A stretch of 64,000 bases of DNA from Fibrobacter sp. UWB11 (GTDB taxonomy: Bacteria > Fibrobacterota > Fibrobacteria > Fibrobacterales > Fibrobacteraceae). Position 1 is the first letter of the stretch. Each line of letters opens with the position of its first letter. A program made the position numbers and the translations under genes. The notes under the pieces were generated by a model that saw only the letters and a list, made by a program, of their open reading frames with translations, was not told the origin of the DNA and did no database searches. The stretch spans positions 248,001 through 312,000 of the forward strand of contig NZ_FSRT01000002.1 of the NCBI RefSeq assembly GCF_900143015.1, in the 5' to 3' direction. Below, one piece after another: positions 8,388 through 51,029 of this stretch.

Positions 8388-9152
8388 TTAGATTGCTTCG
8401 CCGCTTCGCGGCTCGCAATGACGTAAAATGCAAGAGTCGTCTGCATAAGTTTCATTAATGCGAGAGTCATCAGCACGGGTTGCAAAATAGTTGTCAATCA
8501 CAGTTGCGCCAAGTTCCATTTCCTGTTTCAAGATTTCAATGCGTTCGTCCAAACGTTGTTTCAAGAGCGTCAGCGGGAACGCAATTAAAAGTCCACTCTG
8601 CGTCGAAATCAGCGCTTCCGAAATTCCATCCGCCATCAGCACGGGATTCTGGTTACCGTATAGCGTGATCACTTCGAAAGTAGAAACCATCCCCGTGACT
8701 GTTCCAAGCAAGCCCAAGAGCGGAGCGGCAGCCGCCATCACAGAAACAATGTGATTTCCCTGTTCCATGTAACGCACGCTTTTCATCATACGCACTTGCA
8801 TATAGTCGCGGAACTCATCATAATTTTTCCGAGCGACTTCAATTGCGTACGAAAGTTCTCGCGAGAGGAATCCACCACGTTTGCGAAGTTTTGTCAAAGT
8901 CACCTGAACACGCTGTTCATCAGTGCTAGACTCTGTTCCGTCACCAGCTTTTTCGCCAGTCAAGCTGCGTTGCATGCGCCTTACGACTTTATGAATATCA
9001 TTCTTGAAAAAGTCGCTACCAATGCGCAGCCAGCTCGCAAACAGGAAGTAGAACCCGACAACACCCGCCAAGAGAATGGGGAGCATCACCACCCCACCCG
9101 CCTCATACGTATTCCGCAGGGATTCTATGAATATGTAATGAAAATCAGTCAA
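8388..9152 (-). CDS. exbB: ExbB/TolQ-type proton channel protein
   Basis: 254-aa MotA/TolQ/ExbB family protein with three expected membrane segments (about residues 20-42, 145-170 and 185-210) and the family core AAAAPLLGLLGTVTGMVSTF followed by ISEALISTQSGLL. It pairs with the ExbD downstream. The start appears to be TTG at 9152 with GGAAGGA 6-8 nt upstream, overlapping the previous gene by 8 nt. The last 14 residues (CILRHCEPRSGEAI) are encoded by a type B repeat, so the native C-terminus was replaced or extended by a repeat insertion. The second ExbB-like protein in the operon is larger and carries a periplasmic domain. Confidence 0.92.
   Translation of the reverse strand: MTDFHYIFIESLRNTYEAGGVVMLPILLAGVVGFYFLFASWLRIGSDFFKNDIHKVVRRMQRSLTGEKAGDGTESSTDEQRVQVTLTKLRKRGGFLSRELSYAIEVARKNYDEFRDYMQVRMMKSVRYMEQGNHIVSVMAAAAPLLGLLGTVTGMVSTFEVITLYGNQNPVLMADGISEALISTQSGLLIAFPLTLLKQRLDERIEILKQEMELGATVIDNYFATRADDSRINETYADDSCILRHCEPRSGEAI
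8391..8423. repeat. Type B palindromic repeat forming the 3' end of exbB
   Basis: GATTGCTTCGCCGC-ttc-GCGGCTCGCAATGACG. The core GCCGC/GCGGC is complementary. It encodes the last codons of exbB and ends just before the exbD ribosome binding site. Confidence 0.85.
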
Positions 9153-10770
9153 CTTTTTCCTTCCCGAAGACTTTATTCATAAGCGAGGTGCTTTGTACAT
9201 AGAGTTCGCTGGTAATCTTTTCAATTTTTTCGCTCAACAGGCCATGCAAAATCATCACGGGGATAGCGATGATTAAGCCGGTTTCAGTCGTGACAAGCGC
9301 TTCGGAAATGCCACCAGCGAGCACACGAGCATCATTTGTTCCAACTTCGGTAATCACGGTAAAGAGCGTGATGATACCAGTCACCGTACCCAACAGGCCC
9401 AAAAGCGGAGCGATAGTTCCCATCGCAGCCAAAAGGCCCATGCGACGTTCGAGTTTCGGCTGTTCACGGAGCAAAGCTTCTTGCAAGGCGCGTTCCGCAT
9501 TTTCGCGTGTATCGTTCACCTTGTTGAGCACGGCAAACAGCACCATTGCAAGGCTCGTCTCTTTTTTAAGGCAAAGGTTTGCAGCTTCATTGTACTTTTT
9601 CTCAGCAACAAGTTCATTCATCGTCTTGGTAAAGCGACGACCGAGATGACCGCGATAAGAAAGCATCACGAAACGTTCAAGGAACAGGAGGAGCGCAATA
9701 ATCGCCACAAGCATCAGCGGATACATCACGATACCGCCCTTCTTGAAGAACGCATGGAACTGTTCCGTCCAGGTGAGTTCCTTAACATCAGAAATAGAAT
9801 TCTTGATAGCCTTATTTTGCAGCACATCCAGAGGAATTGCGATAGTCGCAGACTGATTGCCCGTTGCAGAACTCGTCACTGTTTCTGCCTGTTTCACAGC
9901 AGCCTTGATGTTCGTCGCCATTTCAGTCGGCAAACCTGCATTCCATTCAAAAATTTTTCCTTGCAATGCACCAGAACGCATCAGTGCCTGCACATCGCCA
10001 TTGTCGTTTGCAACTTCACCGAGGAACACAGTTCCCAAGCGCATGCGAGTCACATTCACATCCGGGCGAGAGCCCACCTGCGAAACTTCATTGCCATAGA
10101 ATTGCGTATAAGTGACTTCGTGACGTTTCAGCAAATCATCCATAAAGCCTTGTACCGCAGCAATCGTATTCGGCACCTTCTTTTCGGCTTCAATGTTCGC
10201 CTGCTTCAAGCGCAACAAGCGAGCGTTCATTCCGACCGGATAATCGCCAGCGACATCGCCAAGCGTCTTTTCAATCGAAAGTTTCACCTGCGTATTGAGG
10301 GCATCAAAGGCGATTTCTTCACTCTTAGATTTTTCTTCGGCTTCTTCGGTGATGTTCTTGCTCGACATCGCTTCTTCGGTGATGCGGCCAAGATCTGTCG
10401 AAAGTTTCGAATAGCGACCGTCAAGCTCACGCGTTTTGTTCTGGTGTTCTTCCGTCATTTGCGATTCCGCATAGCGATTGCTCCAATGCTTGGCATCGAG
10501 CTTTTCGAGGGAATCTGCTTTTTGCATACGGATGCGAGTGAGCGTTTCGACTTCGCGCTGCAAGTTGCGCACTTCGACTTGCAACAAAGAATCCTTGATG
10601 CGAGCTTCGTCTTCGGCGCTTTTCTTACCGTCATTAGACCACGGCCAAGCAAAGGCGGAGGAGGCGAGCAATAAGACAAATGCAAAAATGATTTGACGCA
10701 TAGATTGCTTCGCCGTTTCGCGGCTCGCAATGACGTTTTTTTCTTCGCTCAGAATGACGCTTGTTTTCAT
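9145..10770 (-). CDS. TtpC-like ExbB protein with N-terminal periplasmic coiled coil
   Basis: 541-aa protein. A signal peptide begins at internal Met24 (RQIIFAFVLLLASSAFA). It is followed by a long coiled-coil periplasmic region (about 45-330), then a MotA/TolQ/ExbB domain with membrane segments near 345, 455 and 490 and the core IAPLLGLLGTVTGIITLF. This is the architecture of TtpC, needed for TonB2 function in Vibrio. ATG at 10770 has an ideal GGGAGG and overlaps the DUF3450 stop (ATGA). Codons 4-23 are two palindromic repeats read in frame, placed between the start and the signal sequence. Translation could also begin at ATG 10701, which lacks a clear ribosome binding site. Confidence 0.9.
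   Translation of the reverse strand: MKTSVILSEEKNVIASRETAKQSMRQIIFAFVLLLASSAFAWPWSNDGKKSAEDEARIKDSLLQVEVRNLQREVETLTRIRMQKADSLEKLDAKHWSNRYAESQMTEEHQNKTRELDGRYSKLSTDLGRITEEAMSSKNITEEAEEKSKSEEIAFDALNTQVKLSIEKTLGDVAGDYPVGMNARLLRLKQANIEAEKKVPNTIAAVQGFMDDLLKRHEVTYTQFYGNEVSQVGSRPDVNVTRMRLGTVFLGEVANDNGDVQALMRSGALQGKIFEWNAGLPTEMATNIKAAVKQAETVTSSATGNQSATIAIPLDVLQNKAIKNSISDVKELTWTEQFHAFFKKGGIVMYPLMLVAIIALLLFLERFVMLSYRGHLGRRFTKTMNELVAEKKYNEAANLCLKKETSLAMVLFAVLNKVNDTRENAERALQEALLREQPKLERRMGLLAAMGTIAPLLGLLGTVTGIITLFTVITEVGTNDARVLAGGISEALVTTETGLIIAIPVMILHGLLSEKIEKITSELYVQSTSLMNKVFGKEKVD
10703..10758. repeat. Type B plus short type A repeat between the start codon and signal peptide
   Basis: The type B element (10703-10735) and a short type A element (10738-10758) lie back to back. 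Read in the gene direction they begin GTCATTCTGAGCG and GTCATTGCGAGCC. Together they add about 20 in-frame codons to the TtpC-like gene. Confidence 0.85.
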
Positions 10771-11597
10771 TTTGCACCTCCCACAACAGACAAACTTACC
10801 GGCAAGTTCACAATCTGAGGAGGCTTTTTCGCCTGTTTCACATCAATTGCAAGTTTCACCGCTGCGCGTTCCTCTAGATTCAGGTTTTCATTCCATTCGT
10901 ACACAACATTACCATTTTCAATCTTGCGTTCGAGGCGACCATACTGTGCGCCGTTTTCGTCCACATAAACCATCCACTGGTTACCAATGCGGAGGATCGA
11001 AGCGTTCACGATTTCGCCATCCTTGCGAGTCAATGGGCTATTGACAATCGCAACTTCGTCACCGAACTTGATTTCTTCATTCAGCAAGGACTTGAGGCGA
11101 GAAAAAGCTTCTTCTTCGGAAGCATTGCCGCTTTCGATTTCACGAGTGAGCGACTTGGCGCGATCCAGCCTGCTTTCGCGTTCCCACGGAAGAGTCTGTG
11201 CAATTTGCGATTCCAGCTTTTTGCTGATTTTTGCAAGTTCCAGGCGCAAGGCGCGGCGCTTCGCAGCCACATTTTCACTGCGATTCTTTGCACGGGCTTG
11301 TTTGTTGCGCTCTTGCTGGAGGCTTGCGGCCACCTTACGGATTTTCGCATTCAGGCTGTCGATTTCTGCAACGCGACGATCCGAATCCGCTTTGTAGCGC
11401 TGTTCAAGCACCTTATGGCGCGAAACATCCGCACGGAGCATCGAATCTGTCGATGCGATTTTCACATTCAGCTTTTGAATCTCGGAATTCAACTTTTCCT
11501 TTTGCATCTTCAAGTCACGAATCTCGGACTCGTAATCCGCAAAAGCATTCACCGCCAAAAAGGCTGACATCAAAATAATAACAAGTTTCTTTTTCAT
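10767..11597 (-). CDS. DUF3450 family periplasmic coiled-coil protein
   Basis: 276-aa protein with a cleavable signal (MKKKLVIILMSAFLAVNAFA) and a long coiled coil (about residues 22-125, rich in Glu/Lys/Leu heptads such as RDLKMQKEKLNSEIQKLNVK). A globular C-terminal part contains RIGNQWMVYVDENGAQYGRL. DUF3450 genes head TonB2/TtpC operons in gamma-proteobacteria, exactly the position seen here. It is the first gene of the six-gene operon and overlaps the TtpC-like gene by 4 nt. A two-block regulatory motif lies only 8 nt before ATG 11597; GTG at 11603 is an alternative start. Confidence 0.85.
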   Translation of the reverse strand: MKKKLVIILMSAFLAVNAFADYESEIRDLKMQKEKLNSEIQKLNVKIASTDSMLRADVSRHKVLEQRYKADSDRRVAEIDSLNAKIRKVAASLQQERNKQARAKNRSENVAAKRRALRLELAKISKKLESQIAQTLPWERESRLDRAKSLTREIESGNASEEEAFSRLKSLLNEEIKFGDEVAIVNSPLTRKDGEIVNASILRIGNQWMVYVDENGAQYGRLERKIENGNVVYEWNENLNLEERAAVKLAIDVKQAKKPPQIVNLPVSLSVVGGAK

Positions 11598-11604
11598 ATT
11601 CACC

Positions 11605-11676: not shown

Positions 11677-13512
11677 TTAATATACAGCACGAGTTCCTCC
11701 TGTCGAATATGTTATAGGCTCAACACAAACCTTAGTACCTTCATGCTTGTAGCCTAAATCTTTGCAAACAGCATATTCTTCATTGCAGGGGTCTTCACAC
11801 CATTTTTTGACTTCTTTTTCCCATATAGTCGATTTCAAACCGTCCACAACATAGCGGCTTACCATGGCAGGGCCACATTGCGGATACTTCTTGTAATTCC
11901 AATTGCGATCAGAGCACCAGAGCCACAAATAAGAATTACATTCATTTTTAGACAAGCTATCGTTACACATTGTCTTTAAATTCGTACAATTTGCGATATC
12001 GTTATTTTTAAAATTACTAGCCACGCAATATCGTTTTAATCCATCGGCATAAGCCATTGACTTTTTCTCAGCAGTAATGGTATCAGGCAGATACTTGCTC
12101 CACTTGTCAACATCCCAATCTTCTTCGTTTGCTTGCATCATAGCCGCTTTTACACGAGATGGATAGCAAACGTCTTCGTTTTCGACATATTCGAGGTCGC
12201 TATTGCTATAATACAAATAAGCATTTTCATTCGCCGATTCCAAGTCGCTAGAGGGGCCACGTCCAGCACAATAAACATCCAAATAAAGTCTACAACCTTT
12301 TGAATCCCAACCTTTTGAATTATCTCCATCTTCATTTTTACAATGTCGATTCGCAATGCGTTTCATACTCACCCATTTTTCAGAGTTCACTTTCATAAAC
12401 ACTGTTGTACGCGCCATTCCTGTAAACACGCCCATTCCATTTTCGATATTGGATTCAGGAACAACACGTGAATCCGAAACAGACTGTTTTACCTTATTCA
12501 CATAATCAATATAGGACTCATCCGTTGAATAAAGATCTACAGAAAATTGGCCCACCGGAAGCATCATATTCGTCAGGTGAAGAGTATCCAAATTTTTGAT
12601 ACCACCAATTATATAGTTTGCGGCATACCCGAGATTCTGCTGCGTTTCCAAAGGATCGTGCATTGCAATGCCGCGGTAGCCATCTTCATCTTCAGAGGTA
12701 AAGCCTTCAAACATTTTATTGACGGTCGTGTTCGTGGCCTCACCGTTCTTGGAACCGTAATTCATTATGGATAAAACGCCACGGACAGAATGGTCATAGT
12801 CTAATGCAGCTCTTACAAATTCCATATCCATCGGGTATTCCAAGAAATCCATTTCAACTACATCGCCATCATTATACTCCACCCATTCAAAACTTCCGTC
12901 TTGCTTGGGGATATTGAAACCCTTGACCTTCACAGGGTTTGGAATTGTCGCTTTAGCCTTATACGTCGATTCTACATAATGGCCTGCACTATCCCATTCA
13001 AATGTCGCTTCAAGCGTGTATGTTTCGCCTTCGATACCTGTATAATTGGGTCCGCATGTAACATATCCAGCCGCAGGAATGCATTTCGAAACCATCAAGT
13101 AAGACGATGGATAAAAGCAATTTGGAGTGCTACCGGATGCCGTAAGTTGAATCGTCTCTTCTTCACCTTTACCAAATTCACCTCCAAAGCGACCTTTCAT
13201 AGTCACCTTGGCGTTTTTGTAAAATGCAAAGTTTTCTGCCGTTGTTTCATCAAGTTCATAGACTTTCGAGAAGCAAACCTCCGGTCTTTCACCCGCGACA
13301 ATGTAACCGTACGTATAAATGCCGGTATAGATATCACGTTCCTCAGGATAGTATTCCCACGGGCCATGGAAATCGCAAGCCGTAAGGATAAAAGACGAGA
13401 GAATCCAGACGAGAGACGAGAGGAATCGCCTACAAAAAACATTATAGATTGCTTCGCCACTACCGTGACTCGCAATGACGCCTACATTCTTACATTCAAA
13501 AAAAACATTCAT
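11677..13512 (-). CDS. Large outer-membrane-type lipoprotein of unknown function
   Basis: 611-aa protein with a lipobox (ILSSFILTAC, acylated Cys at about 46) and no family I recognise with confidence. It has many Cys and aromatic residues, and a C-terminal third with paired Cys (CNDSLSKNEC, CSDRNWNYKKYPQC). It lies between the TonB2-type operon and a TonB-dependent receptor in the same direction, so it may be a surface lipoprotein partner, as DUF4249 lipoproteins are for Bacteroidota receptors; that parallel is inference. ATG at 13512 has AAGAAGG upstream and no alternative Met precedes the lipobox. A type B repeat is translated within the signal sequence (VGVIASHGSGEAI), giving an unusually long n-region. 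Confidence 0.7.
   Translation of the reverse strand: MNVFFECKNVGVIASHGSGEAIYNVFCRRFLSSLVWILSSFILTACDFHGPWEYYPEERDIYTGIYTYGYIVAGERPEVCFSKVYELDETTAENFAFYKNAKVTMKGRFGGEFGKGEEETIQLTASGSTPNCFYPSSYLMVSKCIPAAGYVTCGPNYTGIEGETYTLEATFEWDSAGHYVESTYKAKATIPNPVKVKGFNIPKQDGSFEWVEYNDGDVVEMDFLEYPMDMEFVRAALDYDHSVRGVLSIMNYGSKNGEATNTTVNKMFEGFTSEDEDGYRGIAMHDPLETQQNLGYAANYIIGGIKNLDTLHLTNMMLPVGQFSVDLYSTDESYIDYVNKVKQSVSDSRVVPESNIENGMGVFTGMARTTVFMKVNSEKWVSMKRIANRHCKNEDGDNSKGWDSKGCRLYLDVYCAGRGPSSDLESANENAYLYYSNSDLEYVENEDVCYPSRVKAAMMQANEEDWDVDKWSKYLPDTITAEKKSMAYADGLKRYCVASNFKNNDIANCTNLKTMCNDSLSKNECNSYLWLWCSDRNWNYKKYPQCGPAMVSRYVVDGLKSTIWEKEVKKWCEDPCNEEYAVCKDLGYKHEGTKVCVEPITYSTGGTRAVY
13447..13480. repeat. Type B palindromic repeat inside a signal-peptide coding region
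   Basis: GATTGCTTCGCCAC-tacc-GTGACTCGCAATGACG. It is read in frame as V-I-A-S-H-G-S-G-E-A-I by the lipoprotein gene. The stem bases differ from other copies but still pair. Confidence 0.85.
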
Positions 13513-36407: not shown

Positions 36408-36474
36408 ATTTGATAACGGTTTAAAGTACCGTTGAAATTTTGAAGTTATTTCTAAAATATATCTTTTCACGTGG

Positions 36475-36520
36475 TCATTAGTCAATAGTTATTAGTCATT
36501 GGTTATTAGTTATTGGTTAT
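36475..36520. repeat. TTAGTCATTAGTTATT-type tandem leader repeat
   Basis: Degenerate 7- to 8-nt units (TTAGTCA, TTAGTTA, TTGGTTA). Similar tracts occur at 43371-43409, 50867-50900 and 13524-13559, each 5' of a minus-strand gene. Confidence 0.55.
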
Positions 36521-36528
36521 AAAAAAAT

Positions 36529-43360: not shown

Positions 43361-43370
43361 CTTTTTTGTT

Positions 43371-43409
43371 CCTAGTTCTTAGTTACTAGTTAATAGTTTT
43401 AAAACTAGA
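43371..43409. repeat. TTAGTTACTAGTTAATAG-type leader repeat upstream of frr
   Basis: Short degenerate units with CTAGTT/TTAGTTA directly before the frr ribosome binding site. Confidence 0.45.
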
Positions 43410-50866: not shown

Positions 50867-50900
50867 CTAGTCACTAGTTATTAGTCATTAGTTATTAGTG
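50867..50900. repeat. CTAGTTATTAGTCATTAG-type leader repeat upstream of pyrH
   Basis: Almost perfect alternation of TTAGTCA and TTAGTTA, starting just upstream of the pyrH start codon. Confidence 0.6.
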
Positions 50901-51029
50901 TTTCGGAGGAAATGTAATAAAAATAGGCTATGGGTAAAATGAATAGTCCTTGCTTTTTTCATACGAAACGCCTTCTTGCCGCAAATTAATGTATTTCTAA
51001 AAATGGATTAAAGGGAAAGGGATGTTTTT

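Follow-up and report, generated by a model that had tools for sequence, protein, structure and literature searches.

The window, i.e., the whole stretch of 64,000 nucleotides analyzed from the gut bacterium Fibrobacter sp. UWB11 (G000), encodes on its reverse strand an operon with the Pfam gene order DUF3450, ttpC, exbB, exbD, tonB and TPR (Table 1). For the MotA/TolQ/ExbB-family gene (10770..9145) the name TtpC is used, which we take to apply by way of the Vibrio operons; the signal peptide, the coiled region, the C-terminal MotA/TolQ/ExbB domain and the gene order are those of a TonB2-type TtpC. The Shine-Dalgarno (SD) motif GGGAGG and the ATG at 10770, overlapping the preceding stop codon, are present in the sequence as described in the original prediction. 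The first codons, ATG AAA ACA (MKT), are followed by a type A and a complete type B repeat, which are read in frame to Met24. The predicted arrangement of both repeats in frame after three codons and ahead of a signal peptide starting at Met24 was thereby confirmed, with the single correction that the type A copy is truncated, lacking its 3′ half.

Table 1. Positions of the ttpC start region and of further repeat copies in the 64,000-nucleotide window.
Feature	Position	Strand	Basis or remark
Shine-Dalgarno GGGAGG of the TtpC-like gene	10777..10782	-	sequence; anti-SD pairing -13.8 kcal/mol
SD-proximal ATG, the start codon, which forms ATGA with the TGA stop of the DUF3450 gene	10768..10770	-	overlap kept across the genus
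Type A repeat CGTCATTCTGAGCGAAG, 3′-truncated, read as (S)VILSE	10743..10759	-	sequence and family census
Type B CGTC-tagged palindrome CGTCATTGCGAGCCGCGAAACGGCGAAGCAATCTA, read as VIASRETAKQS	10701..10735	-	sequence, shuffles, genome census
Met24 codon, only internal start candidate ahead of the signal core, without SD	10699..10701	-	pairing -2.1 kcal/mol
Signal peptide proper MRQIIFAFVLLLASSAFA, then WPW after the cleavage site	10648..10701	-	alignment with repeat-free orthologues
TtpC-like MotA/TolQ/ExbB family gene, 541 codons	9145..10770	-	PF01618, E 1e-31
DUF3450 gene upstream of ttpC, its stop codon overlapping the start of ttpC	10767..11603	-	PF11932
Type B repeat of the exbB/exbD junction, differing from the ttpC copy at one position	8389..8423	-	exbB frame appears to enter it (DDSCILRHCEPRSGEAI)
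Type B core in the n-region of the DUF4249-like lipoprotein gene (11677..13512), second case in the window	13469..13479	-	
Heptamer (GACGAGA) array, complement coding part of the hydrophobic core of the DUF4249-like lipoprotein (LSSLVWILSS)	13408..13422	+	

Both repeats belong to families with high copy number, dispersed over five contigs of the 3.76-Mb genome. The type B core GTCATTGCGAG occurs in 66 and the type A/C core GTCATYCTGAGCG in 62 genomic copies, with 0 copies for either reversed control, and the 34-nt type B unit has two matches in the window at ≤3 mismatches vs. 0 expected from shuffles. As shuffles and reversed controls both yield zero, the ttpC repeats are not explained by chance. 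Copy number and tag correspond to the CGTC-tagged REPs, short palindromes scattered over the genome that carry CGTC at the 5′ end, a stem starting with AT and a tail that is often CCA, which include RPE-4 and RPE-6 of Rickettsia conorii (PMC3733652). The tag CGTC is found in 63 of the 66 type B copies and TGTC in two; CGTC-tagged REPs were defined by an unpaired tag CGTC (or TGTC/CCTC) at one end, a stem of 8–9 bp with AT as its first two positions, a loop of 4–5 and a short unpaired tail that is mostly CCA (Di Nocera et al., 2013; PMC3733652). Type B differs from this family in its stem, which starts with AT and pairs ATTGC/GCAAT and GCCG/CGGC around an asymmetric internal loop, resulting in an interrupted stem of about 5+4 bp instead of a continuous one of 8–9 bp, and in its tail, which is CTA or CCA (CTA in 22, CCA in 19 and CTC in 10 of 60 scored copies). 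The Y1 transposase, characteristic for genomes with RAYT-mobilized REPs of the GTAG type, gave no match in G000 with the Y1_Tnp/RAYT profile (PF01797), which was positive in 5 of 14 control genomes. Moreover, the orientation of GTCATYCTGAGCG flips near 1.33 Mb on contig C1 (18+/2- on the left side vs. 5+/11- on the right side; Fisher p 4e-4 with a split point picked by eye); this might reflect a replication- or gene-strand bias. A further heptamer-type array, TAGTTAT/TAGTCAT, is found between genes at positions 36465-36524, 43366-43397 and 50868-50913 of the window.

Based on stretches of approximately 3 kb around each repeat, 57 of 128 repeat cores in this genome fall into coding-like open frames. 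As is typical for RPE-like elements, copies lie in frame inside conserved protein-coding genes, with Pfam confirmation for UvrA, UvrB, an A/G-specific glycosylase (MutY-like), LigA, HrpA-/HrpB-type helicases, MnmE, YidC, CoaBC, an epimerase, an aminotransferase and an ABC ATPase; heptamers are present within TruB and FeoB. Loci L101, L108, L075, L155, L099, L126 and L104 cover UvrA, UvrB, the MutY-like enzyme, LigA, HrpB (several), an HrpA-like helicase and MnmE. A bias toward DNA repair and RNA modification genes, as for REPs elsewhere, is possible. Furthermore, at least seven genes of G000 carry N-terminal repeat copies directly ahead of a signal peptide or lipobox. All seven clear N-terminal insertions are of this kind, compared to a crude baseline for the window of 22 of 56 with a signal or membrane helix, which hints weakly at an enrichment of N-terminal insertions at signal peptides.

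Across the genus, the slot between the ATG and the signal core is hypervariable. The comparison comprised 50 orthologous ttpC copies from 48 Fibrobacter genomes, partly MAGs, complemented by gene starts from more distant genomes. In G027, the closest genome in the set (96% identical), the slot is empty and ATG AAA TTT TTG CAA leads straight into the core; it is also empty in G006, G046, G029, G023, G026 and others, as well as in the outgroups read (G050, G049, G053 and G063). These repeat-free orthologues, in which the SD-proximal ATG lies next to the signal core, support the predicted insertion into an ancestral start region with preserved frame, and the N-terminus is accordingly not the same in all orthologues. 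Elsewhere the slot is filled by heptamer arrays such as (GACGARA)n, (GGAATTC)n and AACAATG-like units, by further units, and by palindromes of the GTCATTGCGAG and GTCATCCTGAGCG type, which are used in more than one reading frame, and the n-region ranges from 13 to 70 codons. Sister genomes with and without an insert are found in the pairs G000/G027 and G010/G003; the latter two are identical in their tree rows, composed of DUF3450 and the early mature part of ttpC, and have n-regions of 45 vs. 18 codons. As the n-regions differ despite identical tree rows and the insert types differ by species, the alignments establish, at the level of sequence, that repeat insertion behind the ttpC start codon is recurrent. 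Parsimony yields at least 34 changes in n-region length, a count and not a calibrated statistic, since the inner branches of the quick tree are weak, and the events are partly non-independent. The reading that we consider very likely is that non-autonomous repeats were inserted repeatedly behind the ttpC ATG and are translated as the n-region of a cleavable signal peptide.

In a paralogue, TtpC2, at 979.3 kb on contig C1 (37% identity; TAATG stop-start overlap), the hydrophobic core is directly preceded by a heptamer array together with a palindrome of the GTCATCCTGAGCG type. The TtpC2 n-region is equally variable among 30 species, an open frame leads from the SD-proximal ATG to the core in 30 of 30, and 24 of 30 share one phase; in the other six the ATG directly follows the stop codon. 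Judged by this arrangement, TtpC2 represents a second, independent instance of the ttpC pattern. This parallel and the recurrence with different repeats per species go beyond the original prediction. The heptamer, in reversed orientation, contributes the residues LVSRLSS(L/F)V or a close variant to TtpC2 of five genomes (G003, G010, G004, G027 and G037), and these residues adjoin the hydrophobic core or lie within it. Tentatively, and with rather low probability, the starts of ttpC and its paralogue might form a genus-wide landing pad, where target choice or selection favors the recruitment of dispersed repeats into signal-peptide n-regions; export signals would thereby be rewritten continually, and in some cases a repeat would form part of the hydrophobic core (LVSRLSSLV from the reversed heptamer). 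That the inserts are adaptive, with the repeats kept because TtpC translation or export is tuned by the n-region sequence or by an mRNA hairpin after the ATG, would agree with the many refillings of the slot in two paralogues, but appears unlikely given that neither length (13–70 codons) nor sequence of the inserts is conserved and that many species have an empty slot. A function in mRNA structure was rejected, as the ttpC leader of the window genome folds no better than shuffles (z 0.52).

As the slot behind the ttpC ATG lies 3′ of the stop codon of the upstream gene, its phase can be forced only by translation from the SD-proximal ATG. Counted from the upstream stop codon, the signal core lies at a distance of 2 mod 3 in 49 of 50 ttpC copies; the one copy that deviates has a shifted ATG, which leaves the reading frame intact. 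None of the 50 copies has a stop codon in the frame set by the SD-proximal ATG. Of the 33 copies whose n-region comprises 24 or more codons, all 33 are open in frame 0, none in frame +1 and 12 in frame +2. The alignments hence establish the position of the inserts between the SD-proximal ATG and the core and the retention of the frame across the genus. The ttpC-exbB junction of the same operon serves as a negative control: many species carry the same palindromes there, the distances fall into phases 0, 2 and 1 in 11, 8 and 5 cases, and in insert-bearing species the exbB frame has a stop codon shortly upstream of the exbB ATG, so that the repeats are non-coding. The random phase at this junction indicates that the phase constraint at the ttpC start is not a property of the repeats. 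In some species (L012, L017, L035 and L036) the junction exceeds 400 nt and contains an apparent new small ORF starting with MSSYMYI. The avoidance of TGA in (GAAATGT)n arrays was dropped as a sign of translation because A and G also alternate in non-coding arrays.

These data also bear on the question raised originally, whether export works from the longer n-region or internal initiation is used. The repeats might be a non-coding 5′ leader with translation starting at Met24 or at GTG/TTG codons at the same place in relatives. Met24 indeed has the ancestral spacing to the core, non-coding repeats occur at the ttpC-exbB junction, and untranslated N-terminal REPs were argued for in P. putida, C. 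koseri and S. maltophilia (PMC3733652). However, a leader predicts random phase and stop codons, contrary to the single phase and the open frames observed, and Met24 lacks an SD: the anti-SD pairing amounts to -13.8 kcal/mol for the ATG at 10770 vs. -2.1 kcal/mol for Met24, and the genus-wide medians are -13.6 for the first and -3.9 for the best internal start. Moreover, in five of 25 insert-bearing relatives (G039, G020, G033, G008 and G011) no start codon lies within 22 codons of the signal end, and for G039 and G020 this holds for up to 26 codons. An untranslated leader is thus quite improbable. The combination of frame conservation, SD strength and relatives without an internal start argues for initiation at the first ATG and translation of the repeats, and thereby for the longer n-region, in which at least one K/R precedes the hydrophobic core in 25 of 25 insert-bearing relatives. 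In G001, G047 and G014, a GTG at the old start position is preceded by a weak SD, AAGGA, contributed by the repeat, making dual or secondary initiation possible in these species. Finally, an ancestral long N-terminus lost in repeat-free species, which would fit the presence of some insert in most Fibrobacter of the G000 clade, can be practically dismissed, as the outgroups read have no extension, family and order of the inserts differ among sisters and the ttpC repeats belong to dispersed genomic families.

For the recurrent insertion of translated repeats the following mechanism is proposed. Non-autonomous CGTC-tagged palindromes and 7-bp tandem arrays would insert repeatedly right after the ttpC start codon, and inserts that are out of frame or bear stop codons would be purged by selection. 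The ribosome would initiate at the ATG next to the SD, with coupling to the DUF3450 stop codon that overlaps it, and translate the repeats into a longer n-region of the signal peptide. Sec export would still proceed via the conserved basic residue and the hydrophobic core, and signal peptidase would cut between AFA and W, by which the repeat residues leave with the signal. The most economical reason for the tolerance of this site is that the mature protein stays unchanged. The repeats may originate as selfish or neutral coding insertions, similar to those in Rickettsia.

Rickettsia palindromic elements, RPE-1 and others, were reportedly described by Ogata and colleagues in 2000 (as cited in PMC2653234 and PMC3733652). 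Like the Fibrobacter repeats, for which translation is deduced, these RPEs are palindromes inserted in frame in protein-coding genes and translated (PMC3733652). The Fibrobacter elements differ in being much shorter, mixed with heptamer arrays and partly concentrated in the n-regions of cleaved signal peptides. With the CGTC-tagged REPs they share the tag, the AT at the stem start, in-frame genic copies that often lie in replication/repair genes, and that no dedicated transposase is known. Intragenic REPs were reported, many of them in repair genes and in TruB, and the N-terminal ones may often be untranslated (PMC3733652). In contrast, the N-terminal copies in Fibrobacter are apparently translated and one site was struck recurrently across the genus, so that the ttpC family points to the opposite of this view, for one gene family. 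In Beggiatoaceae, heptamers such as TAACTGA form direct repeats that are mostly located upstream of the start codon and were proposed as regulator binding sites (PMC4679880). The Fibrobacter arrays are likewise 7-bp tandem repeats near start codons; however, (GACGARA)n, (GGAATTC)n and (GAAATGT)n follow the start codon and are part of the reading frame. In the part of the literature covered by the search no report of repeats in Fibrobacter was found, and the word Fibrobacter is absent from PMC3733652.

As a summary, palindromic repeats at the N-terminus of bacterial genes are, as a rule, written off as mis-called starts. The conservation of phase together with the negative control from the same operon indicates that one such set of repeats very probably undergoes translation. 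Selfish coding DNA would find a safe harbor in signal-peptide n-regions, since its product is removed by signal peptidase. In the genus Fibrobacter, RPE-like coding insertions emerge as numerous, some of them in repair genes, and for annotation, start sites in Fibrobacter should not be shifted downstream past repeats by default.
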